From the NCBI GenBank assembly GCA_002254845.1, contig NKPT01000020.1, positions 1 through 50,948 of the forward strand: a DNA stretch of 50,948 bases, in the 5' to 3' direction. A program made the position numbers and the translations under genes. Below the pieces are notes generated by a model, which did no database searches, was not told the origin of the DNA, and saw only the letters and a list, made by a program, of their open reading frames with translations. How positions within the stretch are numbered: the first letter of the stretch is position 1; every line of letters starts with the position of its first letter. Source of the DNA: Chloracidobacterium sp. CP2_5A. GTDB taxonomy: Bacteria; Acidobacteriota; Blastocatellia; Chloracidobacteriales; Chloracidobacteriaceae. Below, in pieces: positions 18,351 to 21,315 of the stretch.

Positions 18351-19085
18351 TCAGTCGCCAAGCCAGGCGAGCAGGCGAGCGGGGTAATCCGTCACGATGC
18401 CGTCCACGCCGCAGGCGACGACGCGCCGGAAGTCCGGCTCATCGTTGACCGTCCAGGTAATAACCCGCAGCCCGCGCCGGTGGGCGGCCGCGACGCGGGC
18501 CGGCGTGACCAGCGCGTGATGCGGGTGCAGCGCGGCGAGGCGCAGCAGGCGGGAGGTGGGGAGCCGGCGCAGATACCAGGGCGATTGCGGCTGATAGAGG
18601 CATGCCAGCGCGATACGCGGGTCGCGCCGCTCAATCCGCCACAGCGCCAGCGGGTTGAACGACGACACCAGGCAGCGGTCATGCAGCCCGAACCGGGCAA
18701 TGAGGCGCGCCACTGCTGGCTCCTCGCCGTGGCTGCGCAGGTGATTGCTCTTGATTTCGACGTTGATGAGCTTGCCCGCTGGAAGTCGGTCGAAAACCTC
18801 TTCCAGCGTCGGGATGCGCTCGCCAGCGAATTCCGAGCCGCGCCATCCGCCAAAATCGAAGGCGCGCAGGGCGGCAAGCGAGAGCGCATCCACGCGGCCC
18901 GCGCCGTTTGACGAGCGGTTGATGGTCTCGTCGTGAATCACGACCGCTTCGCCGGAAGCGCAGCAGCGGGCGTCCAGCTCGATGCCGTCGGCCCCGTCGG
19001 CAAAGGCCTGGCGGAAAGCGGCGTGCGTGTTTTCCGGCGCTGTCCCCGCCGCGCCGCGATGACCAAAAATGGCGGGACGCGACAC
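18351..19085 (-). CDS. Glycerophosphodiester phosphodiesterase
   Basis: GDPD-family TIM-barrel phosphodiesterase, 244 residues, cytoplasmic as no signal peptide is seen. It releases an alcohol and glycerol-3-phosphate from glycerophosphodiesters. The metal and active-site residues are visible: H9 and R10 in FGHRGAAG, E18-N19 in APENTHAAF, E36 and D38 in IELDAR, and H51-D52 in VIHDETINR. Further on LINVEIKS and the C-terminal ITWTVNDEPDFRRVVACGVDGIVTDYP complete the family pattern. The start is GTG 19085. It lies upstream of, and divergent from, a promoter-like sequence at 19121-19149. Confidence 0.93.
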   Translation of the reverse strand: MSRPAIFGHRGAAGTAPENTHAAFRQAFADGADGIELDARCCASGEAVVIHDETINRSSNGAGRVDALSLAALRAFDFGGWRGSEFAGERIPTLEEVFDRLPAGKLINVEIKSNHLRSHGEEPAVARLIARFGLHDRCLVSSFNPLALWRIERRDPRIALACLYQPQSPWYLRRLPTSRLLRLAALHPHHALVTPARVAAAHRRGLRVITWTVNDEPDFRRVVACGVDGIVTDYPARLLAWLGD

Positions 19086-19120: not shown

Positions 19121-19149
19121 TTGCCAGTTGAAACCGATAGGTGTATAAC
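19121..19149 (+). promoter_or_regulatory. Sigma-70 type promoter facing a gene-free, hairpin-rich stretch
   Basis: TTGCCA (19121-19126) and TATAAC (19144-19149) are separated by exactly 17 bases and match ten of twelve consensus positions, which is striking in such GC-rich DNA. Transcription would start near 19156 on the plus strand. No plus-strand gene follows for several kilobases, so the product would be a short structured RNA ending at the hairpins at 19269-19316. Confidence 0.5.
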
Positions 19150-19155
19150 TACGTT

Positions 19156-19300
19156 AGTTAGCCTGCCCTGTGACGGCAGGGCTTGGACGCTCAAGCGCCC
19201 AATAGTTTCGTTTCCGCCACGAAACGAGATCCGTCAACCCGCCTCGATCACAACGCGTTGTGAATCGGAAGCCCTTCTCCCTACTGGGAGAAGGGCTTCT
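19156..19300 (+). ncRNA. Candidate small structured RNA
   Basis: About 145 bases between the promoter at 19121-19149 and a 13-bp stem-loop. Successive inverted repeats are visible: CCTGCC/GGCAGG (19162-19180), a TCAA-loop hairpin at 19184-19199, CGTTTC/GAAACG (19209-19226), the perfect 16-base palindrome TCACAACGCGTTGTGA (19248-19263) and the terminal stem. It does not show the conserved marks of 6S, SRP, RNase P, tmRNA or a tRNA. Evidence is structural only. No transcript is known. Confidence 0.35.
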
Positions 19301-19316
19301 TCCCCATAGGAAGAAG
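19269..19316. terminator. Tandem overlapping stem-loops, probable bidirectional terminator
   Basis: The first stem is AAGCCCTTCTCCC (19269-19281) with GGGAGAAGGGCTT (19286-19298), 13 perfect pairs and a TACT loop. The second stem is CTTCTTCC (19296-19303) with GGAAGAAG (19309-19316). The two share three bases, so they compete. They would end the minus-strand sufR-mrp run, and a plus-strand transcript in the other direction. There is no long T tract. Confidence 0.6.
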
Positions 19317-19335
19317 GAAGTTGCCATTGCCTCAA

Positions 19336-19554
19336 CTAGGCCGCGGCTCGCGCCGGGCTGTCATCGTGGATGTCCACCTGAATGAGCCCGTTACGGTAGA
19401 GCGCGTAGCCGCTAGCGGTGCTGGCGATAATAGATGGAATCCCGCGCTCGGCAAACCACCGCTGCCAACGCTCCAGGTCGCGGTAGCCTTCAGACTTCTT
19501 GCTCTTGACAAAAGTGGAGAAACGATTTTCTTCAGAAATCATAACCGGTCCCAT
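19336..19554 (-). CDS. Unknown 72-residue protein coupled to mrp
   Basis: I do not recognise this small protein. It begins MGPVMISEENRFSTFVKSKK, continues with an aromatic, charged helix (GYRDLERWQRWFAERG) and ends with an alternating stretch typical of beta strands (YALYRNGLIQVDIH). It has no Cys, no signal peptide and no membrane segment. ATG 19554 lies four bases after the mrp stop codon, and GGAGGG inside the last mrp codons serves as its ribosome-binding site, so it is probably made together with Mrp. Downstream are two strong stem-loops. Its place behind a SufR-type regulator and Mrp suggests a link to Fe-S proteins, but that is inference from position only. Confidence 0.65.
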   Translation of the reverse strand: MGPVMISEENRFSTFVKSKKSEGYRDLERWQRWFAERGIPSIIASTASGYALYRNGLIQVDIHDDSPARAAA

Positions 19555-19558
19555 TGTC

Positions 19559-20638
19559 TTACCCTCCAAGGTTCAGTTCAGGAAGTTCGGGAGATGCCAT
19601 TGCCGCCACGGAAACCTGGGCGGCTAGTCGTTCAGCAATGGCTTGAAACGCTTTGGCTTGCGTGCTCTGGGGGTGTCCGACGACGACCGGCACGCCACTG
19701 TCGCCGCCTTCCCGGACCTCAATGCTCAAGGGAATTTCGCCGAGAAAAGCTGTTTCAAACTTTTTAGCCATATCCGAGCCCCCGCCCTTGCCGAAGATGT
19801 AAATCGGCTCAGGGATGTTCGGATGCGTGAAGTAGCTCATATTTTCAACAATGCCGAAGACCGGAACGCCAACTTGCTTGAACATGTTGAACGCCTTGCG
19901 CACGTCGGCGAGCGCCACTTCCTGCGGCGTCGTCACGAGAACCGCCCCCGATACGGGCACGAGTTGCGCCAGCGACAGTTGCACGTCGCCCGTGCCGGGC
20001 GGCATATCCACGATGAGGTAATCCAGCTCGCCCCACGCGACATCCCGCAAAAACTGCTGCACAACGCCGTGCAGCATCGGTCCGCGCATAATCACCGGCT
20101 TGTCGCCCCGGTTGATGAGGCCAATGGACATGAACTTTACGCGGTAGGCCTCGCGCGGGATAATTTTGTTGCCCAGAACGCGCGGCTCTTCCGCGACGCC
20201 CATCATGATCGGGACGTTTGGGCCGTACACGTCGGTGTCCAGCAAGCCGACGCGCGCGCTGGTCTGCGCCAGCGCGACCGCCAAGTTGACGGCGACCGTG
20301 GACTTCCCGACGCCGCCCTTTCCGGAACTCACGGCAATGATGTTTCTGACGCCGGGGATGCCGGCTTTTTCCGGGACGCCGCGTCCCTGCGGCACTTGCG
20401 CTTCCATTTTGATCGTCACCTGCTCGACGCCGGGGATCGCCGTGACGACTTCCCGCGCCTGGTATTCAAGCTGTTCCTTGACCGGACAGGCCGGCGTCGT
20501 CAGCACAAAGCGGAAAGCGACGGCGCCGTCCTGAATCTCCACGTCCCGAATCATGCCGAGCGAAACGACATCCCGGCGCAAGTCCGGGTCCTGAACGGCG
20601 CGCAGGGCGTCGAGCACTTGTTGTTCCAGAATGCGCAT
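19559..20638 (-). CDS. mrp: Mrp/NBP35-type Fe-S cluster carrier ATPase (ApbC)
   Basis: P-loop ATPase of the Mrp/ApbC family, 359 residues, that binds and transfers Fe-S clusters in the cytoplasm. Residues 1-80 form a MIP18/DUF59 domain (VQDPDLRRDVVSLGMIRDV, with Cys in TPACPVKEQ). The deviant Walker A is SSGKGGVGKST around residue 106, followed by LLDTDVYGPN, YLIVDMPPGTGD and the ENMSYF block. The usual CxxC of this block is not visible; the sequence reads ENMSYFTHPN. ATG 20638 overlaps the last base of the sufR stop codon (TAATG), so the two are translationally coupled. The frame runs open upstream to 20875, inside sufR. Confidence 0.94.
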   Translation of the reverse strand: MRILEQQVLDALRAVQDPDLRRDVVSLGMIRDVEIQDGAVAFRFVLTTPACPVKEQLEYQAREVVTAIPGVEQVTIKMEAQVPQGRGVPEKAGIPGVRNIIAVSSGKGGVGKSTVAVNLAVALAQTSARVGLLDTDVYGPNVPIMMGVAEEPRVLGNKIIPREAYRVKFMSIGLINRGDKPVIMRGPMLHGVVQQFLRDVAWGELDYLIVDMPPGTGDVQLSLAQLVPVSGAVLVTTPQEVALADVRKAFNMFKQVGVPVFGIVENMSYFTHPNIPEPIYIFGKGGGSDMAKKFETAFLGEIPLSIEVREGGDSGVPVVVGHPQSTQAKAFQAIAERLAAQVSVAAMASPELPELNLGG

Positions 20639-21315
20639 TATCCACGCTCCCGCTCGGAATCTGAGGCGCGCGCGACCGACGAAGGCGGAAAAATTCGATA
20701 GGCGCAGACCCCGTCGCCATCCGCCATCCGCTGCTCGCGGACGACCTTGCCACCCAGCAGCGCCTCGTAAAGTTGTCGTTCCTGCGCGCACAATTCGGAA
20801 TACACCTTGGCGACGTTGATCGTCGGACAGTTGCGCTCGATGAGCCGGAACGAGCCGTCGGGGAGAGCTTCGCATTCGGCAAGATACCCGCGCTCGATGA
20901 GGAACTCTGCGAGTTTTGCTACACGCGCCGCAAAATCAAGCGGCTCCAAGTGCGGGGCCAAGTGACGCAAGACAAGTTCGGCGCGGGCGCTGATGACCCG
21001 CAACACGCCCTGTTGCCCAAAGCACTCCTGCGTCATCTGCAGCAGCTCGCAGGCCAGCGCGTCGTAGCTCCGGGGAAACAACTCCGCCGCCCGCGCCGTC
21101 AGCGAGTAGGAGTAGCTCGGTCGCCCGCGCCCGCGGGTGACGGCGCGATAGGCTACATAACCCTGCCGCTCAAGGATTTCCAGGTGACGCCGCGCGCTGA
21201 CGCGGGTGAGCCCAAGCGCCGCCGCCAGCGATTCGCAGGTCATCTCGCCATGCTGCTTAAGCAGACGGACAATGTCGCTCCGGTGTTCCTTGAGAAGCGT
21301 GGCCAGCGTCGTCAT
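20638..21315 (-). CDS. sufR: SufR-type Fe-S sensing transcriptional regulator
   Basis: DNA-binding regulator of about 225 residues. The N-terminal winged helix-turn-helix reads EMTCESLAAALGLTRVSARR and then LEILERQGYVAYR. The C-terminal half carries a three-Cys pattern: CPTINVAKVYSELC (C-x12-C), then a third Cys 27 residues on in DGVCAYRIF. This matches SufR-like proteins, which hold an Fe-S cluster and repress cluster-assembly genes when clusters are plentiful. Its overlap with mrp supports the assignment. Start choice is open between ATG 21315 and ATG 21330. A TTGACA at 21349-21354 would place a -10 element over the 21330 ATG, so I prefer 21315. Confidence 0.8.
   Translation of the reverse strand: MTTLATLLKEHRSDIVRLLKQHGEMTCESLAAALGLTRVSARRHLEILERQGYVAYRAVTRGRGRPSYSYSLTARAAELFPRSYDALACELLQMTQECFGQQGVLRVISARAELVLRHLAPHLEPLDFAARVAKLAEFLIERGYLAECEALPDGSFRLIERNCPTINVAKVYSELCAQERQLYEALLGGKVVREQRMADGDGVCAYRIFPPSSVARASDSERERG

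Follow-up and report, generated by a model that had tools for sequence, protein, structure and literature searches.

Few small RNAs have been catalogued for the Acidobacteriota. Four sRNAs of Acidobacteria are given in Table 1 of PMC9029176, and PMC2864571 presents Acido-1 (RF01686) and Acido-Lenti-1 (RF01687) as non-coding RNA candidates of this group. Among the literature matches listed for Chloracidobacterium, no description of small RNAs was found. The window analysed here is a 50,948-nucleotide contig of Chloracidobacterium sp. CP2_5A (NKPT01000020.1), in which 250 bases without a recognised gene separate a GDPD gene from a frame of 77 amino acids. An original prediction, made from the letters of the DNA, had placed a possible stand-alone small RNA gene in this interval, and the promoter, the fold, the conservation and the compensatory changes described below support that reading. 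On sequence grounds the locus very probably holds a structured RNA gene that is conserved together with its promoter. The full reading that I propose, with a probability of about 0.6 for the whole, is a stand-alone, previously uncatalogued sRNA gene of about 150 nt on the plus strand, whose product would be a trans-acting base-pairing regulator, possibly working with Hfq.

The described RNAs that the candidate most resembles are the Hfq-associated intergenic trans-acting sRNAs, with which it shares a promoter of its own, a short intergenic gene, tandem hairpins, a terminal hairpin and an invariant unpaired stretch; Hfq, moreover, is encoded in 15/15 genomes. It differs from them in that it has neither a 3' U-run nor an Rfam family, and in that its targets are conjectural. 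With 6S RNA it has in common that it is a small, conserved, stand-alone RNA, and the 6S gene of the genus has a similar -35 element and the same 17-base spacing. However, the long rod with a central bubble that characterizes 6S RNA is absent from the candidate, which is made of tandem short hairpins. The 6S RNA (RF00013) is in fact encoded by a separate gene (G000:C27:141821-141999, 46.1 bits, just below the gathering score of 46.4), and a 6S match was obtained in 18 of the 20 genomes searched. Within the genus the 6S RNAs (L113-L119) score from 31.7 to 50 bits, six of the seven lying under 46.4, so that a search at the gathering threshold would miss most of them. The SRP RNA (RF00169) likewise lies elsewhere, at G000:C49:18967-19064. 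Neither in the window nor in the loci of three relatives did any Rfam family reach its gathering score, and the matches obtained at relaxed thresholds were chance-like; Acido-1 and Acido-Lenti-1 gave none in the window at either threshold. A minus-strand match to chrB-b RNA (RF03086) at 19176-19222 was set aside as being at chance level (15.5 bits and E 0.79 for a gathering score of 36.5, and on the opposite strand). The locus had been said to lack the marks of 6S RNA, SRP RNA, RNase P RNA and tmRNA, and indeed none of the four has an Rfam match in the window, which for RNase P RNA and tmRNA is the sole ground of exclusion.

The GDPD gene diverges from the candidate RNA gene, and the 77-aa frame, hereafter orf77, converges on it (Table 1). 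The product of orf77 is a conserved small protein, with matches in 14 of 162 genomes of the class, these being the 14 of the same order, and 13 of them have it in two places. The near-consensus promoter that had been proposed (TTGCCA-17-TATAAC) is present, agrees with the consensus at 10 of 12 positions and has conserved hexamers: all seven aligned genus sequences have TTGCCA and GGTGTATAA without change, as well as the TATAA of the -10 box, whose sixth base is C in 6/7. The promoter scan did not list it, since its rule accepts only second hexamers that end in T. The 6S RNA genes of the genus carry, as read by eye, TTGC(C/T)C-17-TAT(C/T)GT in 7/7 cases, with which the promoter type of the candidate RNA fits. 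Transcription would start from this sigma-70-type promoter and run toward the end of the mrp-orf77 pair.

Table 1. Positions of the candidate RNA gene, its parts and the neighbouring genes in the window.
Feature	Position	Strand	Remarks
GDPD gene	18351-19085	-	Pfam PF03009
Promoter	19121-19149	+	-35 TTGCCA 19121-19126, 17-base spacer, -10 TATAAC 19144-19149
Small RNA gene	about 19156-19305	+	start predicted about 7 bases past the -10 box; end predicted after the terminal hairpin
H1 hairpin	19165-19182	+	sequence invariant in genus; two compensatory pairs in G008
H2 hairpin	19183-19202	+	the variable hairpin; 84.6% of cells paired
H3 hairpin	19205-19230	+	10 pairs, 4 with compensatory changes
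Linker, unpaired	19231-19244	+	14/14 columns invariant in genus; putative pairing seed
H4 hairpin	19245-19267	+	16-base palindrome at 19248-19263; no compensatory changes observed
H5 terminal hairpin	19268-19299	+	14 perfect pairs, 4-base loop; 4 pairs with compensatory changes
TTCTTCC-type tail (with last bases of H5)	19300-19306	+	conserved, 5/7 columns invariant; footprint ends here
orf77	19336-19569	-	no Pfam family; overlaps the end of mrp
mrp	19559-20875	-	Pfam PF10609/PF01883

The consensus structure comprises five tandem hairpins and 45 pairs. The fold of 19152-19317 on the plus strand has a z-score of -6.53, none of 200 shuffled sequences folding equally well. As the fold of the minus strand is likewise good (z -5.73), folding by itself does not tell the strands apart. 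The product of the gene would thus be an RNA of about 150 nt that consists of these five hairpins and ends at the strong hairpin H5, its exact ends being predicted. A perfect stem-loop at the end of the stretch had been foreseen with 13 bp; it exists, with 14, and is the longest perfect stem of the window for loops of 3-9 bases, the next longest having 9 bp. The second stem that was said to overlap it (19296-19303/19309-19316) is present in this genome, but gives a good fold in only three of the six genus sequences tested. The palindrome TCACAACGCGTTGTGA in H4 is perfect in this genome, as had been predicted, and its perfect symmetry is peculiar to it: CGCGC replaces CGCGT in the other six genomes of the genus, so that the conserved feature is the hairpin and not the palindrome. 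A canonical intrinsic terminator with a U-run, which is usual in an sRNA gene without being required, was not found: the scan for U-run terminators returned none, H5 being terminator-like without a U-run, and this weakens both termination at H5 and Hfq binding. By eye, the 6S genes of the genus are not followed by a U-run either, so its lack does not disqualify the candidate RNA; a short one, GTTTT, belongs to the SRP gene (read by eye).

Conservation delimits the candidate gene well. A DNA search of 58 genomes retrieved the stretch from 7/7 Chloracidobacterium genomes, its own included, and from 0/51 others, the identity of the other six genus sequences being 80-88%. Measured as mean pair identity, conservation is 0.54 ahead of the promoter, 1.00 in H1, 0.64 in H2, 0.82 in H3, 1.00 in the linker, 0.97 in H4 and 0.84 in H5, and falls to 0.27 over the 29 window bases that follow the tail; the footprint therefore runs from the -35 box to the tail behind H5. 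The identity of the RNA (0.79-0.89) is higher than that of the fourfold sites of mrp (0.49-0.78) in 15/15 genus pairs. A background set was drawn from a 400 kb comparison of G001 with G005: 90 segments, each 100 bases long or more, that were not masked as conserved coding sequence. The best 100-base window of each was scored; nothing aligned in 32 of the 90. The candidate RNA scores 91, and the best background windows score 100 (rRNA-like), 93 and 92 (two short ones resembling unmasked coding sequence) and then 82. Two 100-base windows outside masked genes, at about 137836 and 159415 of G001:C1, show 82% and 81% identity in the comparison of G001 with G005 and are further RNA or leader candidates.

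The original prediction had named conservation of the stems in relatives as a touchstone, and the stems are conserved. In a model-fitted alignment (seven distinct rows, including G008, a genome of the sister genus described below), 11 of the 45 pairs display compensatory changes, as against a mean of 4.0 in shuffled alignments, 0/500 of which reached as many; sliding the structure partners left 1-3 such pairs. In an unfitted alignment of the genus (six distinct rows), seven pairs changed on both sides, for a shuffled mean of 3.4, with 3/500 shuffles as high. The RNAs of G001 and G004 are identical and were counted once in these pair counts. The changes fall in four of the five stems (H1, H2, H3 and H5) in the fitted alignment and in three of the five in the unfitted one. 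A measure of further pair types gave no excess over shuffles in either alignment (84/500 as high in the fitted, 173/500 in the unfitted). Of what marks a stand-alone bacterial sRNA gene, the locus hence has a conserved promoter of its own, a conserved secondary structure with compensatory changes and, as far as sequence can tell, independence from coding sequence and from the neighbouring transcripts, given the insertions and deletions within the genus and the divergent and convergent neighbours.

The range of the RNA was explored with a covariance model built from the seven genus sequences. Among 162 genomes of the class, it found one further clear full-length match (59.1 bits, E 9.5e-15), in G008, which belongs to another genus of the family. 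This copy is syntenic (mrp-orf77-RNA-GDPD), is preceded at the same place by promoter-like elements (TTGCAA-16-TATACT, read by eye) and, when folded alone, adopts the same tandem-hairpin layout with a terminal stem like that of H5 (z -3.84), the fourth hairpin being in the best structure and absent from the centroid. The linker is only partly conserved in it, and its identity to the genus RNAs is 0.56-0.59, versus 0.34-0.48 at fourfold sites of mrp. The gene beyond GDPD in G008 (L025 2529-3128, minus strand), which we take from its appearance to be the coproporphyrinogen III oxidase gene hemF, occupies the place of a degP-like gene in the genus. With a second covariance model, neither 18 chosen genomes nor 396 genomes of the phylum yielded another credible member; the larger genome searches used stricter filters, by which weak matches are lost. 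Two other genomes of the family, G007 and G009, keep the order mrp-orf77 then GDPD, and the RNA was not found between them.

Weaker matches were not counted as relatives, since they cover mainly one hairpin or align poorly. They occur in seven other genomes of the class (G160, G041, G022, G135, G152, G159 and G044; E 0.027-0.58), those of G135 and G152 being judged from table rows and the others by alignment, and in three outliers of the phylum, G488 (23.9 bits, E 0.0025), G192 (19.7 bits) and G388 (18.2 bits). Long open frames contain the best matches of these three and one match of G160 (L066); in G488 the sole frame of this kind runs on the match's own strand and need not be a gene. The G192 alignment shares part of the linker sequence. 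Five proteins encoded around the RNA gene were sought by tblastn in the loci of the weak matches (L026-L032, L066-L069), and none was found there. An exact 19-base pattern of H1 occurred in five stretches in a search of contigs. Two are from members of the genus (L034, L036), and those from Gemmiger, Mesorhizobium and Puniceibacterium were rejected, the model matching them over 18 bases only. About two chance occurrences of such a pattern are to be expected by estimate.

How might the RNA act? The linker is unpaired and invariant in the genus, which is what a pairing seed is expected to be, and its C-rich core would suit purine-rich ribosome binding sites. I infer that the linker, together with the conserved loops, may pair with mRNAs near their ribosome binding sites, possibly with the assistance of Hfq. 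Screens for targets gave negative results. Complements of the linker with at most two mismatches numbered 132 in seven genomes (six being the RNA gene itself), compared with 121 for the reversed control, which is no clear excess. One of the 22 such matches in G001, G001:C1:1305594-1305608, lies 83 bases from the hfq match on the opposite strand, probably by chance. Linker duplex energies were computed for the leaders of 107 of the 208 conserved genes found in G001 and G005 (400 kb of each), with starts guessed from alignments; the other 101 leader pairs were dropped because no start could be picked, the leader was short or it contained N. In these two genomes the linker did no better than shuffled linkers, 26 of 40 controls being as good for the top duplex and 10 of 40 for the mean of the top five. 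In the leader of the antenna gene fmoA, in seven genomes (G004 left out), the duplex gave no signal, the lowest share of shuffles as good being 9/100.

With such screens negative, base pairing is the default inference, and its chief rival is that the same stand-alone RNA gene encodes a protein-binding RNA that serves, like 6S RNA or CsrB, as a decoy or scaffold and does not pair with mRNAs. This alternative is rather unlikely, yet has to be taken seriously: besides the outcome of the screens and the lack of a U-run for Hfq, the very strong structure (z -6.53) agrees with it, as does the fact that H1 is invariant and H4 nearly so within the genus, in sequence as in structure. Against it, the tandem short hairpins do not form a 6S-like rod, the 6S gene lying elsewhere. 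Repeated GGA loops are a feature of CsrB and RsmY, and none were seen by eye in the candidate.

Readings that deny the RNA a gene of its own are far less probable than a base-pairing regulator. H5 could be a mere terminator or barrier between convergent transcripts, with the remainder a leader or spacer, as its standing as the longest perfect hairpin of the window and its position at the end of the mrp-orf77 pair, where transcripts converge, would suggest. But it is H1, the linker and H4, and not H5, that are most conserved, the promoter hexamers are conserved as well, and H1, H2 and H3 covary, which makes this view very improbable. There is equally little to be said for placing the stretch in a structured 3' portion of the mrp-orf77 transcript, on the minus strand, or in a 5' leader of GDPD. 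The minus strand does fold well, but G-U cells, 22 on the plus strand versus 8 C-A cells (which would be wobble pairs on the minus strand), favour the plus strand; as one invariant pair accounts for 7 of the 22 and the plus strand was itself the source of the structure, this count is supporting evidence only. A minus-strand start or leader would furthermore lie at 19307-19335, where conservation is low, and G007 and G009 retain the flanking genes with no RNA found between them. An operator or dispersed palindromic repeat, which the perfect palindrome of H4 might evoke, is scarcely credible: the palindrome is imperfect in relatives; with at most one mismatch, in six genomes (G002 and G004 left out), it is confined to this locus in four, G001 and G006 each having one further imperfect place; and the DNA search found the stretch at one place per genome, except that H5 matches its own complement in G000. 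Finally, the 62-aa frame at 19121-19309, though open here, is disrupted by single-base insertions and deletions within the genus and has no Pfam match, so that a short coding gene is just as implausible.

The distribution of the candidate RNA coincides with that of the FMO antenna protein (PF02327). FMO was found in 8 of the 14 genomes of the order, which are exactly the eight RNA carriers; the other six have neither, two of these being only 83% and 87% complete. In the sample of 396 phylum genomes, FMO occurs in four, the same four that carry the RNA. In an mrp tree covering 13 genomes, G008 branches as sister to the genus with a support of 89/87, below the strong-support mark of the program. 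As the carriers of RNA and FMO form one clade, this is one coincidence and not eight independent ones. The RNA would have arisen or become fixed in the sole acidobacterial clade in which FMO was found here. In Rhodobacter, small RNAs are known to influence photosynthesis genes. By analogy, the candidate could conceivably be a riboregulator dedicated to chlorophototrophic life in Acidobacteriota, tuning genes for pigments or photooxidative stress to light or oxygen, a speculation that is unlikely to hold as it stands. The candidate is well bounded by its promoter, structure and range within one FMO clade, and as such might offer an entry into the control of phototrophy. A separate observation concerns the fmoA leader (L105-L112): a 12-base element, TGCGTCCCCTGC, is invariant in it in 8/8 genomes and is a candidate control element of the antenna gene, and a conserved GCAGGAGA is found near the start codon.
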